Positions 1-20,032 of a stretch of DNA of 20,032 nucleotides are shown here, piece by piece (within the stretch, counting starts at the first letter, position 1; each line of letters starts with the position of its first letter). Source of the stretch: a virus. Location of the stretch: positions 1 through 20,032 of IMG/VR virus record IMGVR_UViG_3300004369_000200, one strand, 5' to 3'. The notes under the pieces are model-generated. The model ran no database searches and was not told the origin of the DNA. It was given only the letters and a program-made list of their open reading frames with translations. Both the position numbers and the translations under genes were made by a program.

Positions 1-540
1 TTTGCACCTGCTACTACGTTAGCAGTTGCGGCATTAGATACTTCACCTGAAACATTAGCACCAGCAACTGCGTTTGCAACTGCGGCAAATGCAACTTCAC
101 CAGAAACGTTTGCGCCTGCAACACTATTGGCTGTGTCTGCAAATGCTACTTCTCCGCTTACGTTTGCTCCGTCAACTGAGAATGCATATACAGCATTAGC
201 AACATTCCCGCTAACATTAGCGCCTGATACGGCATTAGCGGTTCCAGCAAATGATACTTGACCTGAAACATTAGCGCCTGCTACTGAGTTTGCTGTGGCT
301 GCAAATGCAACTTCACCTGACACATTTGCTCCAGCAACTGAGTTAGCAACTGCGGCAAATGCAACTTCACCTGAGACATTTGAACCTGCTATGTTGTTTG
401 CTGTGTCTGCGAATGCTACTTCACCAGAAACATTTCCACCTGCTACTGCATTTGCTGTTGCGGCATAACTTACTTCACCTGATACGTTAGAACCTGCAAC
501 TGAATTTGCGGTTGCCGCAAATGAAACTTCTCCAGTAACA
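1..540 (-). repeat. Tandem 54-bp coding repeats, about 10 units
   Basis: Units spaced exactly 54 bp apart encode G(A/S/G)NVSGEV followed by an Ala/Asn-rich stretch. The boundaries fall near 6, 60, 114 and 168 and continue to about 530. Units differ by synonymous and a few conservative changes (SGEV, SGQV, SGNV). The block continues past the left edge of the window. Confidence 0.85.
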
Positions 541-1616
541 TCGCCGCCCGGTACATTTGTTAAGTTTGCGCCGTCGCCTGTAACATATGTAAAAATACCA
601 CCAGTAGCACCTATGTTATTTACGTTTGCGTTTCCTGATACATTAAGAATTGATAATGTACCTAATGATGTAATGTTGGGTTGTGAGGCTGTGTATACGG
701 TTCCTGCTACTAATGCGTTCCCTACTTGCCCGGATACGTTAGAACCTGCGACTGCATTTGCTGTAGTTGCAAATGCGACTTCTCCAGTAACGTTACCACC
801 TGCTACAGAGTTTGCAACAGCCGCAAACCCGACCTGTCCGGTGACATTAGCACCGGTTAATGATGAAATGTTGCTTCCATCACCTTTTAAATATTGTCCT
901 TGTACTACACCAGCATTTGCATATAGATTACCTGTTGTAGTTGTTGCTGTTACTGCTAAACTAGTAAGAGTACCAACACTTGTAATATTAGGCTGAGCCG
1001 CTGTTGTTAAAGTACCGCTTAAGTTAGCACCTTGTATTGTGCCTGAGTTAGCATATACACTTGCTAATATTGCTGTGCCACCTGAAATTTGTCCTGAGCC
1101 AACTGATAAATTACCACCTGTTATGTTGCCTGTAGCAGTCAAAGATGTAACAGTCAATGGAACTAACATCGTAGCACTTGATGTTACATTTAAGTTAGCA
1201 GTTGTTAAGTTATTAGTTGCTGTAATATTATTTGCGGCTAAATCACCGCTTATTGTGACATTGCCGATGTTTGCAAGGTCTGTTGGCAAATCTACATAAA
1301 GAGTTTGTGTAGAATCAGTGATTGTTGCGGAGCCACCTGCAACGCCGTTGCCGGCTACATCTCTAGTAACTTGTAGAGTTGATGAACTTACTTGGACACA
1401 AGAAATGTTTGCGCCAAGCACAACGTTACCCACGGGTGAACCGTTAACTAAGTATATTCCTGGACCTGCAGTTCTGTTAACACTAACAACTGCTTGATCT
1501 CCCAAACCTGCAAATACTTCGGTGAAATTTAACTGTACTTTTTCAAACGCCGAACGAATAGGATCTGCATCAGGATCGTCAGGAAATGCTCCAAAATCAA
1601 TATTTCTCTGTGCCAT
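1..1616 (-). CDS. Repeat-rich tail fibre or virion appendage protein, C-terminus outside window
   Basis: The frame is open from an ATG at 1616 to the window edge, giving about 538 codons with no stop. The N-terminus begins MAQRNIDFGAFPDDPDAD and continues with a short helix (SAFEKVQLNFTEVF), a type of N-terminus I associate with structural appendage proteins of marine T4-like phages. From about residue 280 it contains 18-residue (54-bp) repeats of the form VAGANVSGEVAFAATANS, three in one block and about ten in a second. The blocks are separated by a longer module (PNITSLGTL ... GDGANLTNV) that also occurs once earlier. Such repeats usually build a long trimeric beta shaft, and a receptor-binding tip would lie beyond position 1. 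A GATAAATA late promoter and an AGGA ribosome site precede the start. Fibre identity is inferred from composition and repeat type; no receptor-binding domain is visible. Confidence 0.7.
   Translation of the reverse strand, partial: MAQRNIDFGAFPDDPDADPIRSAFEKVQLNFTEVFAGLGDQAVVSVNRTAGPGIYLVNGSPVGNVVLGANISCVQVSSSTLQVTRDVAGNGVAGGSATITDSTQTLYVDLPTDLANIGNVTISGDLAANNITATNNLTTANLNVTSSATMLVPLTVTSLTATGNITGGNLSVGSGQISGGTAILASVYANSGTIQGANLSGTLTTAAQPNITSVGTLTSLAVTATTTTGNLYANAGVVQGQYLKGDGSNISSLTGANVTGQVGFAAVANSVAGGNVTGEVAFATTANAVAGSNVSGQVGNALVAGTVYTASQPNITSLGTLSILNVSGNANVNNIGATGGIFTYVTGDGANLTNVPGGDVTGEVSFAATANSVAGSNVSGEVSYAATANAVAGGNVSGEVAFADTANNIAGSNVSGEVAFAAVANSVAGANVSGEVAFAATANSVAGANVSGQVSFAGTANAVSGANVSGNVANAVYAFSVDGANVSGEVAFADTANSVAGANVSGEVAFAAVANAVAGANVSGEVSNAATANVVAGA
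690..860 (-). repeat. Second block of 54-bp fibre repeats, 3 units
   Basis: Three more copies of the 18-residue unit (GANVTGQV, GGNVTGEV and GSNVSGQV types) lie nearer the N-terminus of the same protein. They are separated from the larger block by a non-repeat module of roughly 50 residues. Confidence 0.75.
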
Positions 1617-5795: not shown

Positions 5796-6176
5796 CTATA
5801 AGATAACATTTCTTTGAACTGATTGATTAGGAGCAGGTGCGGTGGACACTCCATATAGTGCAGTTTTAGTTCTTAATAGATTTAAATAAAAGGCCATTTC
5901 TGCATTCAGTTGCAGTTTAGTAGAATTTCTACCTCTCATATAATCTACAAATACCATAATATCAGTATCAGTTTCTTGTGCAAGTCTAAACAATACTGTA
6001 GCAAATTGTGCCGCTGTCTTTTTAGCAGATTCAGATTGTCTGCTTTCTGTTGCGGCTGCGCCTAAGAACATAGAATAAACTACGTCCCATTTATCTGCTG
6101 GTACGTTTAATTCAACATTATAAAAATTGTCAAATATTTGTACTGTTTGATCTGCTTTTTGAATTTCTAATGCCAT
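5796..6176 (-). CDS. Conserved virion-type protein of unknown function (126 aa)
   Basis: The start overlaps the stop of the upstream tube-fold gene in a TAATG arrangement, so translation is probably coupled; an AGGA also lies upstream. The protein begins with a beta-like segment (VQIFDNFYNVELNVPADKWDVVYSMF) followed by helices (QFATVLFRLAQETDTDIMVFVDYM, then ALYGVSTAPAPNQSVQRNVIL). I recognise this arrangement from marine T4-like phages, where it lies among tail and head genes, but I know of no function. Its coupling to a tail-tube-like gene suggests a tail, baseplate or assembly role. It has no signal peptide or membrane segment. Confidence 0.7.
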   Translation of the reverse strand: MALEIQKADQTVQIFDNFYNVELNVPADKWDVVYSMFLGAAATESRQSESAKKTAAQFATVLFRLAQETDTDIMVFVDYMRGRNSTKLQLNAEMAFYLNLLRTKTALYGVSTAPAPNQSVQRNVIL

Positions 6177-7318
6177 TAGTTTTGTGTTCCTGCGGGCGGT
6201 TCGTCACCACCAAATTCAGAGGCGCTTGTAATTCCTACCATTGTTGGTGATGAGTTTGCTGTAGGTGTTCCTGTTCCACCCCCGCCAAAAGGATCTTCTC
6301 CTGCAAAAATTTTTACAAGTGCGTCTTCAAGTAATTCTTGTAATTGTTTCTTTGCACTATTTACAATACTCTGTTCATTGTTTAAGATTTCTTTAACCTG
6401 TCCTATTTTGTTTATAAGATCAAGAAGATTATTAGTCTCACCGCCGAGAATTTCAGGTATCTTATTGAATGCAAGGTCTAATGGATTTAGCGACCCTTCT
6501 AATAATGGACTGTCTTCTATGTCATAGTTTGCATCATTACCAAACCCTTCAACGATATCATCTAATCCTACTTCTGGATCCATTGTACCGGTATTATAAG
6601 TTACAGTTTCGTATTCTAAGGTCATAGTATTTTGCATAGTACCGCCACCTTCACTGTATGCATAAGTGTCGTGGTCAAATTTAGTAATGATAGGATTGAT
6701 CAATGTATATGCAATGTAATTTTGTGCCCAAAAACCAAAGATATTAATATTTTTAAAGAAAGGTACTTTAGATCCTCTGTTAGGATAAAGATCATTAGTT
6801 TCTAAATTATTAGAGCCTCCCCTATAACCATATTCCATATCACCGGTAACAGAAGGATCATAAATGTTTCTTCTATTAAATTCTTTAAACGCAGGTTGAG
6901 ATTGAAAAGGTGCTACAGTAGGATTCCATGAATCAGCATAATAATATCTATAATATGCGTCCCAAAGTGCAGTCATTTGACTCATATTATCATCATGGAA
7001 TGTAATAGTAATAGGATCGTATTTTATTTTTGTCTGTACAACTCTTTTCCTATTATACTGATTTAACTCTGTTGTGTCTATTTTAAATTTAGGTAATTGT
7101 ACGTCTTTTACTAAAAGACCGTAATTTTTACCTGTTGGTGGTTGCCACGCTTCACCGTTAATGATGAAGTTAGTGTGGAACATAAATTTGACTTTGGGAG
7201 CATTAGCAAAACCACCGGGAGTAAAAACTTCTTCCGCATGTTGCCAATCACGCAAATATCTGCGTCCTTGAGCATCGTTCCAAAATCGATTTAATATTCC
7301 ATCTATATCTATTGGCAT
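6176..7318 (-). CDS. Tail-tube-fold baseplate protein, possibly T4 gp54-like tube initiator
   Basis: The protein has 380 residues. Residues about 40-245 look like the two-layer beta fold of tail tube proteins: FMFHTNFIIN, then LLVKDVQLPKFKIDTTELNQYN, VVQTKIKYDPITITFHDD, ALWDAYYRYYYAD, and a late strand pair MQNTMTLEYETVTYNTG. About 280-340 is helical with coiled-coil potential (LLDLINKIGQVKEILNNEQ), followed by a Gly/Pro/Thr-rich tail. A tube domain plus a helical extension matches the plan of T4 gp54, which starts tube polymerisation on the baseplate, though gp48-like or other tube-completion roles are possible. It has its own late promoter and lies just past the gp19 terminator. Fold assignment is moderately sure; the exact T4 counterpart is not. 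Confidence 0.6.
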   Translation of the reverse strand: MPIDIDGILNRFWNDAQGRRYLRDWQHAEEVFTPGGFANAPKVKFMFHTNFIINGEAWQPPTGKNYGLLVKDVQLPKFKIDTTELNQYNRKRVVQTKIKYDPITITFHDDNMSQMTALWDAYYRYYYADSWNPTVAPFQSQPAFKEFNRRNIYDPSVTGDMEYGYRGGSNNLETNDLYPNRGSKVPFFKNINIFGFWAQNYIAYTLINPIITKFDHDTYAYSEGGGTMQNTMTLEYETVTYNTGTMDPEVGLDDIVEGFGNDANYDIEDSPLLEGSLNPLDLAFNKIPEILGGETNNLLDLINKIGQVKEILNNEQSIVNSAKKQLQELLEDALVKIFAGEDPFGGGGTGTPTANSSPTMVGITSASEFGGDEPPAGTQN

Positions 7319-7410: not shown

Positions 7411-8058
7411 TTAGGTAGCAGTAGCAGTTTGTCCTGGGAAGGATTGTAGACCTGGCTGACCAATACCTGCTCCTGGTACACCACTTAAGTCACCAGAACC
7501 ATTAGTCTGAATAGCATTATCATAACGTACAGTTAATGCTACAGTTACAGCATCAGATGTTCCATAGTTTAGAGTCTGATAGTTAGCCTGTTGTAAGAAA
7601 CAACCTGATAAAGACCAGTTTTCTAATACAGTAGGAGTATTGATGCCATTTCCACCGTCTAAGATTTGAATCTCCATATCGAACTTGTAATCTCCACCAG
7701 CAGCCGCTGAAGATTGCTCATAAAAGTCTAATTGACGTTGTAATTGAGCACCAACTGCTTTTGAAATATTACCTGAAGCGTCATCTCTAAGATTGACGGC
7801 AAGTGTTTGCCAAGTATGCTTACCAGCAAGATAGACACGTGAGTTATACACGTTAAGTGTAATCTCATCGAACTGTACTTGAGGTCTTGCACAATCTACA
7901 ACCTGTCTGGTACAAACGAGTGAAGAATCATCGTCAAAACCAAAATTAATAAAATTCACTCGGAATCTATATTGAAGTTTTGGCATCAACAAGTTTTGGT
8001 TAGCACCTCCTTCGGGTACGACTGAAAGTTTTGCTAATGTATCTGAGGCTGTTGCCAT
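7411..8058 (-). CDS. gp19: Tail tube protein, T4 gp19-like
   Basis: This 215-residue protein forms the inner tube of the contractile tail and lies directly after the sheath gene, as in T4. Recognisable parts are the start of the fold (LMPKLQYRFRVNFINFGF), CARPQVQFDEITLNVYNSRVYLAGKHTWQTLAVNLRDD in the middle, and LENWSLSGCFLQQANYQTLNYGTSDAVTVALTVRYDNA near the end. It is about 50 residues longer than T4 gp19 (163 aa). Most of the excess is an N-terminal extension and a flexible Gly/Pro/Gln-rich tail after about 180. A strong AGGAG ribosome site, a private late promoter and a private terminator fit a protein needed in many copies. The assignment is firm. Confidence 0.94.
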   Translation of the reverse strand: MATASDTLAKLSVVPEGGANQNLLMPKLQYRFRVNFINFGFDDDSSLVCTRQVVDCARPQVQFDEITLNVYNSRVYLAGKHTWQTLAVNLRDDASGNISKAVGAQLQRQLDFYEQSSAAAGGDYKFDMEIQILDGGNGINTPTVLENWSLSGCFLQQANYQTLNYGTSDAVTVALTVRYDNAIQTNGSGDLSGVPGAGIGQPGLQSFPGQTATAT

Positions 8059-8133: not shown

Positions 8134-11100
8134 TTATTGCTGTCCTGATAACTCACCAGTGTTAAAAATTCTAACAGGAATGTAAATAAATTCGACTGCT
8201 TTGACAGGCTCTACAGCGATGTCAACCCAAAGTTCGTTTCTATCGATTCTTGCTGGAGTGTTATTAGATTCATCACACACTACTGAGTAGTCGTATAGAC
8301 CGCGTTTTGCAACTAGATCCTGGAACAAACCTTCAATTACTGATCTAATTGACTTTCTTGTTTGTGGATCATTTGGTTCAAACACAAATGGTCTTGCGGC
8401 TAGAGTAAGTTGTCTGCGAATGTATGCCACTAAACGTGCTACGTTGATTCTATCTAATGCAGATGAAGAATCAAATGATGTTTTGTTACCGTAGTTCAAT
8501 AAACCGTTACCAGTAAAGAACACTAGTGGGTTAATGAAGTTAGAGTAAAGAACATCTCTGATGCCAACACGTGTTTTAATTGCGTTAAATTCACCTGTTT
8601 GTGCATCAACATAACCGATGTTTGCGGCGTTATCAATGATACCACGTCTTGTACCAGCTGGAGCTAACCAGGGGTAAGCAATCGCATCATTACGTAACAT
8701 AGTTCTGACCATCATGTGTGAAGCAGGAACTGCAACTAAGTTACCTGATAGGTCATTAGTAATACCTGATGGGTAGAATAGACCCATATAAGTATTTCTT
8801 GTGACTAGTCCATCTTCACCAGTTGATGCCGCACTTGCTAAGTTAGTAGCCCATGCTTGAATTTCAGTAGCATCATCTTTTAGTCTTAATGGAGTGTCAC
8901 CTACAATATATCCTGTCTCACCTCTATCAGAGTTCAACGTAATCATGTTAGGCTGTAACTCAGGATAGTTAGGAGCGGCTTGTAAGTTGAAGAAGTTATC
9001 TTCGTCTCTAAGTGCTGTGTTAGTATCAATAGCAGCCTTCATTGCTTGAACAACCATTGCTCTTTGAGCCTTGCGACCCATATAAGGAGCACCGTTTGAC
9101 TGTAAGCCTGAAGAAGTTACCCACGCATCCTTCTGATTAGGAAGATTGTCATTGGGGAATCTGTCGCTATTAAAATAGTTAACACGATACTGTTTTACGT
9201 TATATCCAGAACGTCTTGTGTTGAATAACAACATACCTACGGGATACAATCCATTTTCAGGAGCATCAACATCTAAGTAATCACTTGTTAATAACACGGG
9301 AATTGACGCCATTGGATCGTTTGCTGGGTTAGTTGTGCCATTTGTTGCCCAACGTGCATCAGCAAAAACAACACCAGAAGGATTGATTTGATCAGTGTTA
9401 TCGATCTTAACCCATCTGTCAGTACCGTCGACTTGTTGCCATCTCCAAATAACTGGATAATTTTCTAAGTCTGTTGTATCAATCCAAAGATCACCCCAAA
9501 CTAATGTAGTACCATCTGACTGCTGACTTGGTTCACTAGCACTGATAATAGGACCAGCTGGGTCAGTGTTGTTGATGATAGTCGGAGAAGGTAGACCATT
9601 TTGATCATATCCTTGATTTCCGTATCCGCTCCAACCTGTTGTGGTATTAATCATAATATCACACTGATCTACTGAAGAATAGAACCAGTTAGTTAAGTTG
9701 TCTGGAATTGATGTTGGTGCACCTTCATTAGATGTTAATGAGTTAGCGCCTGACGTTGTTAATGAGAATGCTCTCCAGTTTGATAACTGAACTGAGTAAA
9801 CAGGAGTCGCAACACCTGAGAACCAAGTATAAGCACTTACGTCACCGCCTATACCAACTGCTGTAACTACGACTGTTAAATCGTTTGCAGGTGAAGATCC
9901 GCCCATATCAGAGCCAGAGAATGTAATTCTATCACCTACTACGTGACCTGATCCACCGTTTAAAACAACATTTGGATTAAATTGATATCTTTCATAACTG
10001 TTAGATACTGCAATATTCAAGCCAACGCCGGCTCCTGTTGATGAAGATTGAGAAACGTTAAATGTAATATCATCAACTGCAGGGCCATATTTACAACCTG
10101 CTGTTGAGTTAGCAACAAATCCTGCTTCTGCCCATAGACCACTGCTAGTACCATCTGCTTGAATGTCTCGCATTACAATAGTACCACCAGCAGTATGAGT
10201 AATGCTGATAGAACCATCATCATTAACATTTGCTGAAGTGTAAGGAATGTTTGCCGCTGACCATGATGTTACAAAATCAGTTGCATCTGTATTATCATTT
10301 AAAAAGAATGTATAATCAGAACTCAAAGTTGAAGAACCTGGAGTTGATACTTGCACGTATGCAGTGTAAGGACCGTTTGTAAAGTCAGGGGCTGTATTAG
10401 TTCCTTTGATTACTGTAGGACCAGTTCCAAAACGATACCAGAAATAAAGAGGACCGTCTGCATACTCGCCATTAAAATCATACTGAGTATAAACAGTTCC
10501 AGCTGGAATTGCTTGTCCACCTGTTGAGTCTACAGAGTTAATTTGAGTCCAATCTGCGTTTGCAAATGTAGAATTCAATGCTGTATAAGAAGCAGAAATT
10601 GAATCATACTGATTAAATGCTGGTACTAAACCGTTTCCTGCTGAACCAACCTTGATCCAAACAGAGCCAGATGGAGCAGGTTCTGCTTGAGTTGATTGCC
10701 ATAGTGGCTGTTGAGCAGATGTTCCGTAAAATACTTTTGGCTGGAAACCAGTTTGTGTGCCTGCAAAGCCCATATCAGTTAATACAGTACCTGTTTGGTT
10801 TGTTACTCTAATATAATATGGTGTTCCACTTTCTTGACCTGTTTGTCCAGAATAGATAGCAAGTTTGTTATCTACTACTTGTGCAAATAGATATTTCCAG
10901 TTAAGAGAGTTGATATCTGCGGCAATCTGGCTAACAGTATTGTTAGGAGCGGCTGCAACAGTAATCGTTGCAACGTTTGAGCCATTAACTACTAGATCAA
11001 AAGTATCACCTGCTGTTAATGTTGGATTAGCATTATTACCCAGTAGTGCGGGGTGTGCTTTAAACCAGTCTTCACTTCCAATAGAGACCCAAGTGTTAGC

Positions 11101-11727
11101 AGGTGTCTTATAGAAGTATTGTGGTGCACTAGATGCACTAGGATATTGATAATTTGCAAGAGCAACAACTGCGTAATCACCGATGTTACCTAATGAATTA
11201 AGAGGAACACCTCCTGCTAATAAATCAGTATCAGTAATAACTGTAGGATTTTTTGATGTGAACAATCCTGTTGTTTCATTAAATTCGTTAATACCCCAAG
11301 TTGAAGTAGTTGTGTCTAACCAATAAGAGTCATCTTGTGGAGCGCCTGTTGGTCGACCTGTAGAACCTACTAAACTTGCTAAGTCAATGTCTGCTCTTAA
11401 AACAAACACTTGGTTAGAAATGCCAAGTGCTGAGTAAGCAGCCAATAGACCATACTCATCTAATTCGTAACCCTGAATAGGTGTTCCATTAGATGTAGTA
11501 TAAAAATAAGGGTTACCATATAGTGTCACCAAATCACGCTGACTTGTAACACGATATAATTTTCCGGCATTTGCGGCAGTTGTGGCTGCGGCTGTGCCTG
11601 TACTTGTTGGGTCTGCTTTATCTTGTGCTGTTGCTACTAAGAAAAAGGGAACCGATGCTGGTGCGCCTGGTAAGTATTGACTTTCATCAATAATCGTTAC
11701 TTCTACGCCGGGTGATGTTAGTGCCAT
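8134..11727 (-). CDS. gp18: Tail sheath protein, T4 gp18-like, greatly enlarged
   Basis: At 1197 residues this is nearly twice T4 gp18 (659 aa). The N-terminus (MALTSPGVEVTIIDESQYLP) and the C-terminal core (about 800-1197, ending IDRNELWVDIAVEPVKAVEFIYIPVRI) are typical of contractile sheath proteins, whose terminal strands link neighbouring subunits. Residues about 116-790 are extra. They include short Trp-rich motifs (SYWLDTTTSTW near 134; YFYKTPANTW near 204; GDLWIDTTDLENYPVIWRWQ near 745), an Ig-like stretch (FDLVVNGSNVATITV, about 243-257) and a Gly-rich segment (VVGDRITFSGSDMGG, about 596-610). The insertion most likely lies on the outer tail surface. The ATG follows AAGGA at 9-nt spacing. 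The leader is longer (56 nt) than for the other late genes. Sheath identity is firm; the role of the insertion is unknown. Confidence 0.95.
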   Translation of the reverse strand: MALTSPGVEVTIIDESQYLPGAPASVPFFLVATAQDKADPTSTGTAAATTAANAGKLYRVTSQRDLVTLYGNPYFYTTSNGTPIQGYELDEYGLLAAYSALGISNQVFVLRADIDLASLVGSTGRPTGAPQDDSYWLDTTTSTWGINEFNETTGLFTSKNPTVITDTDLLAGGVPLNSLGNIGDYAVVALANYQYPSASSAPQYFYKTPANTWVSIGSEDWFKAHPALLGNNANPTLTAGDTFDLVVNGSNVATITVAAAPNNTVSQIAADINSLNWKYLFAQVVDNKLAIYSGQTGQESGTPYYIRVTNQTGTVLTDMGFAGTQTGFQPKVFYGTSAQQPLWQSTQAEPAPSGSVWIKVGSAGNGLVPAFNQYDSISASYTALNSTFANADWTQINSVDSTGGQAIPAGTVYTQYDFNGEYADGPLYFWYRFGTGPTVIKGTNTAPDFTNGPYTAYVQVSTPGSSTLSSDYTFFLNDNTDATDFVTSWSAANIPYTSANVNDDGSISITHTAGGTIVMRDIQADGTSSGLWAEAGFVANSTAGCKYGPAVDDITFNVSQSSSTGAGVGLNIAVSNSYERYQFNPNVVLNGGSGHVVGDRITFSGSDMGGSSPANDLTVVVTAVGIGGDVSAYTWFSGVATPVYSVQLSNWRAFSLTTSGANSLTSNEGAPTSIPDNLTNWFYSSVDQCDIMINTTTGWSGYGNQGYDQNGLPSPTIINNTDPAGPIISASEPSQQSDGTTLVWGDLWIDTTDLENYPVIWRWQQVDGTDRWVKIDNTDQINPSGVVFADARWATNGTTNPANDPMASIPVLLTSDYLDVDAPENGLYPVGMLLFNTRRSGYNVKQYRVNYFNSDRFPNDNLPNQKDAWVTSSGLQSNGAPYMGRKAQRAMVVQAMKAAIDTNTALRDEDNFFNLQAAPNYPELQPNMITLNSDRGETGYIVGDTPLRLKDDATEIQAWATNLASAASTGEDGLVTRNTYMGLFYPSGITNDLSGNLVAVPASHMMVRTMLRNDAIAYPWLAPAGTRRGIIDNAANIGYVDAQTGEFNAIKTRVGIRDVLYSNFINPLVFFTGNGLLNYGNKTSFDSSSALDRINVARLVAYIRRQLTLAARPFVFEPNDPQTRKSIRSVIEGLFQDLVAKRGLYDYSVVCDESNNTPARIDRNELWVDIAVEPVKAVEFIYIPVRIFNTGELSGQQ

Positions 11728-11791: not shown

Positions 11792-11821
11792 TCCTTCATA
11801 AAAAAATCGATGGTTATTAAA

Positions 11822-11846
11822 ACCTTCGAAGGTATTATAAATACCT
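11822..11846. repeat. Two overlapping palindromes around the HNH late promoter
   Basis: ACCTTCGAAGGT at 11822-11833 is a perfect 12-bp palindrome. It shares its AGGT arm with a second inverted repeat at 11830-11846 (AGGTATT, ATA centre, AATACCT), which contains the TATAAATA octamer. The shared arm can pair with only one partner at a time. It may be an operator, but this is speculative. Confidence 0.55.
11836..11843 (+). promoter_or_regulatory. Late promoter TATAAATA on the plus strand, for the HNH gene
   Basis: This is the only exact match to the T4 late consensus in the window. It lies 5 nt before the ATG at 11849, so the expected transcript would begin at or next to that ATG. Confidence 0.65.
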
Positions 11847-11848
11847 AT

Positions 11849-12196
11849 ATGTTATCAAGACCTATGTGTAAAGAATGCAACAGACACTTTTGTGCTGTTA
11901 ATTACATTCGTGAGGGTGTGAGACATTACCGCAGTCTTTGTGACCACTGCGGAAAAAAGAAAAAGAAGTTTAGACGATTATATAGTTGGGAAAAAGCAGG
12001 ATACCAAAAAAAATCTACATGTGATGTTTGTGGATTTAATTGCGTCTATCCTACACAGATGTTAGTTTATCACATTGACGGTGACTTGACAAATGTAAAC
12101 TTTACTAATTTACGAACAATATGCTTAAACTGTGTAGAGGTCGTAAAGAAAAAAGACTTTAAATGGAAGCGTGGAGATTTACAAGTTGATTATTGA
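11849..12196 (+). CDS. Small HNH-type zinc-finger endonuclease-like protein
   Basis: The protein has 115 residues and four CxxC pairs: CKEC, CDHC, CDVC and CLNC. The last two frame the core VYHIDGDLTNVNFTNLRTICLNC, which matches the HNH pattern with His, Asp and Asn. The usual final His after the last CxxC is absent (CLNCVEVVKKK). I associate this family with marine T4-like phages, where it is commonly labelled HNH endonuclease. Possible roles are homing or DNA binding. The open frame extends up to 11810, but that part contains the late promoter and has no ribosome site. Starts at 11849 (leaderless) and 11864 (MCKEC) are both plausible. It is the only plus-strand gene within the minus-strand block and overlaps the end of the kinase gene by 18 bp. 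Confidence 0.7.
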   Translation: MLSRPMCKECNRHFCAVNYIREGVRHYRSLCDHCGKKKKKFRRLYSWEKAGYQKKSTCDVCGFNCVYPTQMLVYHIDGDLTNVNFTNLRTICLNCVEVVKKKDFKWKRGDLQVDY

Positions 12197-17196: not shown

Positions 17197-17337
17197 TACT
17201 ACTCCAAAAGATGACGACTGAATTATCAGTTACATGAAACAATTTATCAGTCATTCTAACACCTAAAAAATTATTTGCAAGCCTTTGCTTACCCAATCGC
17301 AAAAATGAGCGAGGCCGCCCTTACGATAAATATATAT
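17197..17337. promoter_or_regulatory. Divergent intergenic region between the 406-aa gene and gp14
   Basis: These 141 bp separate the leftward and rightward blocks. Leftward, only a weak octamer GATAAATT (17248-17241) is seen about 44 nt before the 406-aa start, as part of two ACTGATAA copies 21 nt apart. Rightward, a full GATAAATA lies at the end of the region. No convincing sigma-70 promoter was found. Confidence 0.5.
17325..17332 (+). promoter_or_regulatory. Late promoter GATAAATA for gp14 and gp15, with leaderless spacing
   Basis: The plus-strand octamer ends 5 nt before the gp14 ATG at 17338. By T4 geometry, transcription would start at or next to that A, leaving no ribosome site on the mRNA. 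Confidence 0.65.
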
Positions 17338-19077
17338 ATGCCAAGACTATCATTATACAGACCAGAGAAACAAAACGACTATCGATTTTTGGATAGAACA
17401 ATATCCGAACAATTTACAGTGGGCGGAACTGATCTATATATTCACAAATATTTAGGTCCGCAAGATAACGGTCCCTCAGCAGATTTTACGCAACCACAAT
17501 ACAATACGTTAGACCCTCTGAACATACAAGATTTGTTGTTTTTGGAAAACAGAGATCGTAAGTATGCAAAAGACATTTATCGTCTAAGAGGACATTATAA
17601 CGTTCAAAACTTGGACTTTGATTTAAGTCAGTTTGGATTGTTCTTAAGTAATGACACTATATTCATTACCGTACACTATAATGATATGATTGATGTTGTG
17701 GGAAGAAAATTAATGGTAGGAGATGTAATCGAACTACCTCACTTAATGGATTACAATCCTCTCAATGAAGAATTCCCTACAGCACTAAAAAGGTTTTATC
17801 AAATTACTGATGCAAACTATGCCAGTGAAGGTTTTGCTATTGATTGGTATCCCCACTTATGGAGAATCAAGTGTGAGCCTCTAGTTGATAGCCAAGAATT
17901 TAGTAACATTCTTAAAGAACCAGTCAACCAAGACAATTACTTAGGTGATTGGGATAAACTAAAAGTTTATCCACCTGGATACGTTGTATCATTTGGTGAC
18001 AAGAATTACGTTTCTTTGCAAGAAGTACCGGCAGGCATAAAACCCGGTGCTACTGATCCTGATCCCTATTGGACATTAGATACCAAAGAAAATCTTAAAG
18101 ATATATTAGGTCGTTATAACAAAAACATTGAAATTAACGACAAGAATTTAGAAGAAGCAAAACGCATTGTACCAAAAGCAGGTTACGATACTTCAGACTT
18201 ATACGTAGTACCCGGATACGGCATCTATGAAGCGAACGGTGTTCCTTCTAACAAACTAAATCAACCTGCACCTCCAACTGACATTCGTACTTGGATGCCC
18301 GGTAATCAAGCATTAACAACTACCGGACAAGTTATTACAATGCGTAGCAAAGAATATCGGTATGAATCTTCTGGCATTAAGATTTCTAAATCTACAATGG
18401 AATTTATACAACAAAAGATGGGCGACACAGTAAGTGTTGATTCATTAATTGACAAGTTTGTACAAGCCAGTCTATCAATGACTACAGAATCACCAGAAAT
18501 GAGTAGAACTGGCTCTGGCGCATTAGAAGGTACTAAAGTTTTATCAGTACAAATTACAGGTCCAGTAACTGGTCCTTATGGTACTGCTGATAATACGTAT
18601 GCTACAGCAGACCAAGATCCAACAGCCGCAGGCTTTACTGGCACTGAACCATATGGTCCAAACACTATGGACTATCGTGCAGACTGTGATCCTAGATTCC
18701 AGTACATTGCACGTTCAACACCAAGAGACTTTGGTTATACAACAGGATATTTAACAGGTGAAGGTACTCCACCAAATGGATTGCCTTCGGGTGCAGGGAT
18801 TGCTTTCCCCACAAGTCCTCAAGTTGGAGATTACTTTTTACGCATAGATTATTCTCCTAACGTTTTGTATAGATGGAACGGTCAGTTGTGGTTACGTGTA
18901 GGCGAAGATGTAAGAACATCTACCGGTTACACAAGTGAGGACACATCGCAACTTTCAGGATTTATTAATAATGAGGATCAAATCTATGTAAATAGTCAAG
19001 AGGAAGAGATCCCATCAGCACAACCTCTATCGTCTATGTTAGAGATTGCTCCTGATCCGATACCTCCGGAAGAGTAA
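17338..19077 (+). CDS. gp14: Neck protein, T4 gp14-like, enlarged
   Basis: From the ATG at 17338 the protein has 579 residues, over twice T4 gp14 (256 aa). The start MPRLSLYRPEKQNDYRFLDRTISEQFTVGG and the segment FDLSQFGLFLSNDTIFITVHYNDMIDVVGRKLMVGDVIELPHL (about 94-136) parallel T4 gp14, where FGMQVQDEVTLSINPGLF is followed by GDLIYFP. Extra parts include a Trp/Tyr module at about 204-248 (VYPPGYVVSFGDKNYVSLQ ... DPYWTLD), similar to small carbohydrate-binding modules. Another lies near 490-523 (QVGDYFLRIDYSPNVLYRWNGQLWLRVG). The frame is open back to 17275, but that part lacks a ribosome site and contains the late promoter. gp14 joins gp13 and gp15 at the head-tail junction. Gene 15 follows at 4 bp. 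Confidence 0.8.
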   Translation: MPRLSLYRPEKQNDYRFLDRTISEQFTVGGTDLYIHKYLGPQDNGPSADFTQPQYNTLDPLNIQDLLFLENRDRKYAKDIYRLRGHYNVQNLDFDLSQFGLFLSNDTIFITVHYNDMIDVVGRKLMVGDVIELPHLMDYNPLNEEFPTALKRFYQITDANYASEGFAIDWYPHLWRIKCEPLVDSQEFSNILKEPVNQDNYLGDWDKLKVYPPGYVVSFGDKNYVSLQEVPAGIKPGATDPDPYWTLDTKENLKDILGRYNKNIEINDKNLEEAKRIVPKAGYDTSDLYVVPGYGIYEANGVPSNKLNQPAPPTDIRTWMPGNQALTTTGQVITMRSKEYRYESSGIKISKSTMEFIQQKMGDTVSVDSLIDKFVQASLSMTTESPEMSRTGSGALEGTKVLSVQITGPVTGPYGTADNTYATADQDPTAAGFTGTEPYGPNTMDYRADCDPRFQYIARSTPRDFGYTTGYLTGEGTPPNGLPSGAGIAFPTSPQVGDYFLRIDYSPNVLYRWNGQLWLRVGEDVRTSTGYTSEDTSQLSGFINNEDQIYVNSQEEEIPSAQPLSSMLEIAPDPIPPEE

Positions 19078-19081
19078 TTAA

Positions 19082-20032
19082 ATGGCACAATATTTTTACG
19101 ACAATCAAATACGCAGATTCTTACTGCAATTTGCAAAAATCTTTAGTAACTGGTATGTAACTAAAGGCAATGATCCCAACGGTAATCCTATAATGGTTAG
19201 AGTACCTATTCAATATGGAGATTCCAGTAGACAAGCATCAACTATTATTGCAAACAACTCTGCAAGTAACATGCCAAGTGCTCCTCTTATTACATATTTT
19301 ATTAACGGTTTAGAATACGATCAGAAACGCACACAAGAACCGTATTTTATTGAAAAGCAACAAATAAGACAACGTGAATATAACCAAGAATCAGCCTCGT
19401 ATGAGCAGACACAAGGACAAGCATTTACTGTTGAAAAATTAATGCCAGTACCCTACACACTGCGTATTCAAGTTGACTTTTGGACAACTAACTATCAACA
19501 AAAACTAGAATTGATAGAACAGTTAGGCACATTATTCAATCCGTCATTAGAAATTCAAAGCACGGATAACTTTGTTGATTGGACATCATTAACTGTTGTG
19601 TATCAGGATGGCTTAACATTCTCATCACGTAGTATCCCACAAGGTACAGGCAATCCTATCGATGTTATGTCTTGGAAGTTTTATATTCCTATCTGGTTGA
19701 CTACTTCTGCTAAACTTAGAAAGTATGGTGTTATTCACAAAATTATTACTTCAATTTTTGAAGGTAGTACTTTGCAAGACATGCAAGATGATGATTTGCT
19801 GTTAGGTACTAGACAAAAGATTTCTCCATATGGATATAAATTATTATATATAGGCAACTCCCTACAACTATTACCGCAACGAGAAACAGAGACACCTAAT
19901 AATTTTTCATTAAATCAACCTACTAATCCTGATACTGATTTGTATTGGACATCGTTACTAAACATGTATGGTGCTTACAAACCGGGCATTTCTCAAATAT
20001 GGCTAGAAAATCCATATATGGAAAATGAAATT
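19082..20032 (+). CDS. gp15: Tail sheath terminator, T4 gp15-like, C-terminus outside window
   Basis: The frame is open for 317 codons to the window edge, already longer than T4 gp15 (272 aa). MAQYFYDNQIRRFLLQFAKIFSNWYV matches the T4 start (MFGYFYNSSFRRYATLMGDLFSNIQI). It is followed by MVRVPIQYGDSSRQASTI, which parallels T4 IRVPITYASKEHFM. PYTLRIQVDFWTTNYQQKLELIEQLGTLFNPSLEIQ corresponds to the T4 IYELSIFTRYEDDMFQIVEQILPYFQPHF segment. VMSWKFYIPIWLTTSAKL fits the T4 WSLTFEVNGWMYPP region. gp15 caps the sheath and tube and connects the tail to the neck. It lies 4 bp after gp14 with GGAAGAG shortly upstream, so both share the promoter near 17330. Confidence 0.86.
   Translation, partial: MAQYFYDNQIRRFLLQFAKIFSNWYVTKGNDPNGNPIMVRVPIQYGDSSRQASTIIANNSASNMPSAPLITYFINGLEYDQKRTQEPYFIEKQQIRQREYNQESASYEQTQGQAFTVEKLMPVPYTLRIQVDFWTTNYQQKLELIEQLGTLFNPSLEIQSTDNFVDWTSLTVVYQDGLTFSSRSIPQGTGNPIDVMSWKFYIPIWLTTSAKLRKYGVIHKIITSIFEGSTLQDMQDDDLLLGTRQKISPYGYKLLYIGNSLQLLPQRETETPNNFSLNQPTNPDTDLYWTSLLNMYGAYKPGISQIWLENPYMENEI

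Follow-up and report, generated by a model that had tools for sequence, protein, structure and literature searches.

A 20,032-nucleotide stretch of viral DNA (the window; positions 1 to 20,032 of IMG/VR record IMGVR_UViG_3300004369_000200) encodes, on its minus strand from 11727 to 8134, a 1197-residue protein with an ATG start, whose two ends resemble a contractile tail sheath and between which several hundred residues have been accommodated. The question raised by this locus is what these residues are and what they do on a phage tail. The ORF encodes the contractile tail sheath of a large phage. The tail sheath profile phrog_10581 matches residues 1–1191 (E=2.3e-206, profile positions 2–913 of 915), phrog_23 matches residues 958–1190, and the Pfam family Phage_sheath_1C (PF17482) matches residues 1086–1187 with 64.2 bits against a cut-off of 26.9. 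A tail tube gene (7411–8058, minus strand; phrog_4542 tail tube, E=1.3e-48) lies directly downstream, together with a second, larger tube paralogue (6176–7318, minus; phrog_13438, E=3.6e-18). Upstream of the sheath gene are a deoxynucleoside monophosphate (dNMP) kinase and a gp13-like adaptor, a gp4-like head-closure protein is also encoded, and a T4 gp15-like tail sheath stabiliser (19082–20032, plus strand; PF16724, E=2.7e-19) runs off the window. A similar gene order (adaptor, dNMP kinase, sheath, tube paralogues, head closure) is found in PA5oct, GAP32 and RaK2; the adjoining tube gene and this tail-assembly synteny support the sheath assignment.

Other features of the neighbourhood are recorded here in their own right. 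The second tube paralogue carries a long C-terminal extension, and three such genes are annotated in GAP32 and RaK2. The interval between the sheath and dNMP kinase genes holds a small HNH-endonuclease-like ORF on the other strand (11810–12196, plus). A fibre-like ORF that runs off the window (3–1616, minus) contains numerous degenerate repeats of VAGANVSGEVAFAATANS type, and a similar ORF is present in L271.

The sheath core is recognisable at both ends of the protein, as had been noticed from the sequence alone. Residues 1–115 (11383–11727, minus) and 888–1191 (8155–9066, minus; Phage_sheath_1C at 8167–8472) align to the 714-aa XacN1 sheath, the N-terminal part to its residues 5–117 with 45% identity, and residues 997–1192 align to T4 gp18 with 36% identity over 185 columns. 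The full-length AlphaFold2 model, built on an alignment of 101 sequences, has a mean pLDDT of 90.3 and a pTM of only 0.73, and its best PDB matches in Foldseek are T4 gp18 (E=2.6e-19), a Klebsiella phage sheath and then the sheaths of contractile injection systems. T4 gp18 (659 aa), the top structural match, shares the C-terminal core and is 538 residues shorter; between it and the middle of the window sheath no sequence similarity was detected.

What lies between the core halves is organised around short tryptophan-rich modules, the presence of which had been predicted and which proved to be real. The stretch from residue 136 to 793 holds 21 of the 25 tryptophans of the protein, and HMM matches place family-wide modules at residues 124–150 (Wa; 11278–11358), 670–704 (Wc; 9616–9720) and 730–785 (Wd; 9373–9540), all on the minus strand, Wa being matched in nearly all relatives. 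Wa and Wd form the fixed left and right borders of a length-variable cassette, residues 151–729 (9541–11277, minus), with Wc in its right end. Among 116 representatives, 123 ± 7 aa precede Wa and 411 ± 12 aa follow the end of Wd, compared with 451 ± 120 aa for the middle between Wa and Wd, which ranges from 212 to 737 aa and is about 580 aa here. Cassette length correlates with total sheath length at 0.99. With flanks so fixed and a middle so variable, length change within this sheath family is confined to one site, and the comparison of sheath lengths among relatives, proposed at the outset as a check, thus places the variation almost entirely in the cassette. Separately, a predicted virion protein of the window (17275–19077, plus; phrog_11591) has at about residues 511–540 a short Trp-rich module of a type like those of the sheath.

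These measurements alter the picture of the insertion itself. The original prediction held that residues of about 116–790 form one insertion of roughly 670 residues; additional beta domains are indeed present between the core halves, whereas the single block has to be replaced by a family-wide Trp frame enclosing a variable cassette. The size was likewise overstated. The XacN1 sheath, in which the HMMs detected none of the Trp modules, spans the region of residues 116–887 (772 aa) with 287 aa, and the cassette, about 580 aa here, is 212 aa long in the relatives that are most compact; from the two comparisons the net extra amounts to about 370–490 residues.

A protein of this build might also be produced if assembly had joined the sheath gene to another gene, and a cassette unlike the core, with modules common to other virion proteins, is what such an error could leave behind. 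The evidence from other contigs and from selection makes the probability of this negligible. A scan of viral contigs returned 435 stretches encoding relatives of the sheath, of which 80 were kept, and about 70 of those 80 carry an uninterrupted full-length ORF of 1171–1215 aa; one full-length relative, 99% identical, comes from another metagenome, and some of the contigs are 79–125 kb long. Intact copies in about 70 other contigs rule out the misassembly that had been named as a possible undoing of the prediction. Furthermore, dN/dS across the sheath segments is 0.06–0.47 overall, so that all of them are under purifying selection: the N- and C-terminal cores give 0.06–0.12 (residues 1–115 alone 0.06–0.08), residues 801–1000 give 0.13–0.18 and residues 116–800 give 0.10–0.47. 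The core evolves more slowly than the cassette.

Synonymous sites showed a pattern of their own. At 4-fold degenerate positions, in comparisons of the window with L002, L003 and in other pairs, divergence in the core and the tube gene is about half of that in the cassette and in most neighbouring genes, and the shift falls near residues 115 and 800, inside the one sheath gene. The low core values could reflect either recombination of the core or codon constraint at particular sites. Cassette swapping, which the higher synonymous divergence of the cassette might have indicated, was discarded as not demonstrated, the cassette being near the background of the neighbouring genes and the core and tube gene being low.

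The most variable part of the protein, residues 218–665 (9733–11076, minus), was modelled alone with AlphaFold2, giving a pLDDT of 90.6 and a pTM of 0.82, and this part is accordingly predicted to fold independently. The model had no match in the PDB at E≤0.001 (Foldseek); among predicted viral structures its matches were several multi-domain proteins of phages and a sheath of 1037 aa. Since residues 218–665 fold alone in the prediction and lack such a PDB match, an ordinary sheath-core fold for the segment, the other outcome that was to count against the prediction, was rejected.

Within this part, two modules of one repeated type were delineated by HMM, at residues 233–293 (10849–11031, minus; iterated HMM 3e-25) and at about 447–511 (10195–10389, minus; 1e-9). 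They are separated by a stretch that includes the conserved Trp-containing linker PAPSGSVWIKVGSAGNG (residues 350–366; 10630–10680, minus; occupancy 0.98, distant relatives); P341 is invariant and W357 nearly so. The two modules resemble the flagellin-IN type, a similarity that is drawn through relatives and a fold match of weak E-value. The window's own modules fall below the Pfam threshold of Flagellin_IN (PF07196), but 15 of 29 diverse members of the homologous modules match the family at E≤1, with 2.6e-7 the best, and in three relatives (records of L119, L128 and L163) the sheath ORF scores above its gathering threshold. Against Vibrio flagellins the 218–665 model gave Foldseek probabilities of 0.97–1.00, with E-values of only 4e-3 to 3e-2. 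Matches of the profile for these modules to flagellins (E ~1e-3) cover most of the module, unlike its matches to polyubiquitin, which we dismissed as an artefact: single repeats have i-Evalues of 9–88 and, in the alignments shown, cover about 30 of 76 positions. A tblastn search of phages with the first module alone found nothing. Outside the sheath gene, a 385-aa ORF with two Flagellin_IN matches was noted in the record of L163 (G015; 293830–294225, minus).

An Ig-like stretch had also been proposed here, and it did not hold up. The window's segments matched no Ig-like family in Pfam, matches of the 218–665 model to antibody fragments mostly had Foldseek probabilities below 0.25, and flagellin is the better fold match. 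The Gly-rich beta segment, by contrast, is real (residues 551–665, 13% Gly). It contains at residues 589–653 (9769–9963, minus) a module of the form GSGxxVGDxxTFxGxxxGGxSPANDL, identified by tblastn and profile, that occurs mainly in the window's clade, where all 15 records tested had a profile match in the sheath. By tblastn the module is present also in virion and baseplate proteins of cyanophages, among them Synechococcus phage S-SSM7 gp7 and virion structural proteins of S-CAM1 and S-CAM3; these are not sheaths and share only the short Gly-rich GxGYxVGD module.

An early suggestion was that the insert may bind glycans; the Trp modules would then serve as carbohydrate sites of an adhesin. 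The aromatic richness of the modules and fold matches that include phage proteins annotated with ChiC_BD and concanavalin-like domains are compatible with this, although in those proteins the match may lie outside the binding domain. The segments of the window protein matched no carbohydrate-binding family in Pfam and no binding site was identified; moreover, the Trp modules are the conserved and not the variable part of the insert. We regard a glycan-binding adhesin as unlikely.

For a role on the virion, the number of copies and their placement are of importance. Ten records were inspected, including ones of 347, 457 and 518 kb, and each has exactly one sheath gene; the window's own record is a 20-kb fragment, and the gene count is taken from those ten. 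With one sheath gene per record, each sheath subunit should carry the insert, as was originally proposed. In solved and modelled sheaths, that of T4 included, additional domains are directed outwards from the tube (PMC9230969). For phiKp24, the outer component of the sheath is reported to take no part in interactions between subunits during assembly (PMC9700779). By analogy with these sheaths, the cassette should coat the exterior of the tail. In phAPEC6, a related phage, the sheath is built of 25 hexameric rings (PMC7247149), which would amount to about 150 copies of the cassette if the tail of the window phage is similar.

The outer placement in other sheaths, taken with the faster evolution of the cassette, favours an outer coat that makes weak multivalent contacts. 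On this reading, the ORF would encode the only major sheath protein in the tail of a jumbo-type myophage. The two terminal parts would make up the standard contractile core, with a chain of small beta domains added between its halves at the one site where this is permitted. The insert would consist of a fixed frame of Trp modules and a cassette with two modules of flagellin-IN type and one Gly-rich module of cyanophage type. Judging from homologous sheaths, the modules would point away from the tube and cover the tail exterior, with one set for each sheath subunit. Such a coat may be tolerated and evolve faster than the core in the manner of the flagellin D2/D3 domains, and it may engage the host envelope or the surroundings through weak multivalent contacts, contraction not being driven by it. 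We consider this account as a whole to be probable, at a modest level of confidence. Its parts differ in standing: the homology to sheath proteins, the division into core and cassette, the predicted independent folding, the single hot spot of length and the modules common to other virion proteins are results of the analysis, and weak multivalent surface contact is, by analogy, the most likely role of the cassette. A point against the outer-coat reading is that the shared modules could be purely structural spacers.

The main rival is mutual bracing, in which the beta modules of neighbouring subunits would interlock on the outside and strengthen a long, thick jumbo-phage tail with no part in adhesion. 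Evseev, Shneider and Miroshnikov (2022) propose cementing by additional domains, and in phage 812 such a domain touches the neighbouring subunit (PMC9230969); the family-wide conservation of the Trp modules and the longer sheaths of larger phages are also consistent with bracing. However, the length of the cassette varies more than threefold and its modules differ, which would not be expected of a conserved interlocking interface, and the phiKp24 observation cited above speaks against it as well. We judge bracing to be a real possibility and yet, on this evidence, rather improbable. A further proposal is that the insert provides a docking platform for the hair-like whiskers on the tails of related jumbo phages. 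Tail-associated hairs are described for 121Q-like phages and for CBB, relatives that have sheaths of the same family (PMC7247149; PMC5259590). In phAPEC6, though, the hairs are limited to three annular positions along the 25 rings (PMC7247149) even though every subunit has the insert, and those of Atu_ph07 appear to be mainly associated with the capsid (PMC6102473). Docking of whiskers is therefore very unlikely to be the function.

Returning to the outer coat, its closest precedent is the multi-domain 'type 3' sheath of jumbo phages (Evseev, Shneider and Miroshnikov, 2022; PMC9230969), for the additional domains of which adhesion or stabilisation was proposed and a general likeness to the layout of flagellin was pointed out. 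That paper gives lengths of 1086 aa for Atu_ph07, 888 for RaK2, 955 for SCTP-2 and 1283 for LacPavin_0818_WC45. The window sheath has the same layout, namely an N- and C-terminal core with two or more additional domains, as seen from the folding of residues 218–665 and the module HMMs; it is an unusually large example of the published type 3 architecture, which likewise belongs to jumbo phages. It is also a member of phrog_10581, about 280 residues longer than the 915-position profile. It differs from the type 3 sheaths as described, whose domains are mostly Ig-like (PMC9230969), in having a cassette with IN-type and cyanophage-type modules. A search of the viral contigs with the SCTP-2 sheath gave no relatives, and no description of IN-type modules in a sheath turned up among open-licence papers. 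The details that appear to be new, as increments to the published architecture, are the IN-type modules, the confinement of length change to one hot spot and the module shared with cyanophages. Like the sheath, flagellin has an outer domain set between conserved core-forming termini, and the IN-type modules may share its fold; no relation between the flagellin core and the sheath core is claimed. A larger member of the same family was noted in L270 (2633–6667, from the 518,643-base record of L163): a 1344-aa sheath, longer than the 1283-aa maximum in the part of the Evseev table considered here (PMC9230969), whose cassette has Gly-rich modules as well as three of IN type.

The broader proposition, that jumbo-phage sheaths acquired flagellin-type outer modules at a single hot spot as a fast-evolving coat facing the host or the environment, is put forward tentatively, as an idea more apt to be wrong than right. 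Were it true, the tail shaft, besides the fibres, would take part in surface interaction. In many environmental phages sheath enlargement takes place at a single position flanked by fixed Trp modules, and one-site enlargement with shared modules makes the cost of large sheaths in large phages testable through removal of a single cassette. The added pieces are part of a pool common to other virion proteins and to domains of flagellin type.
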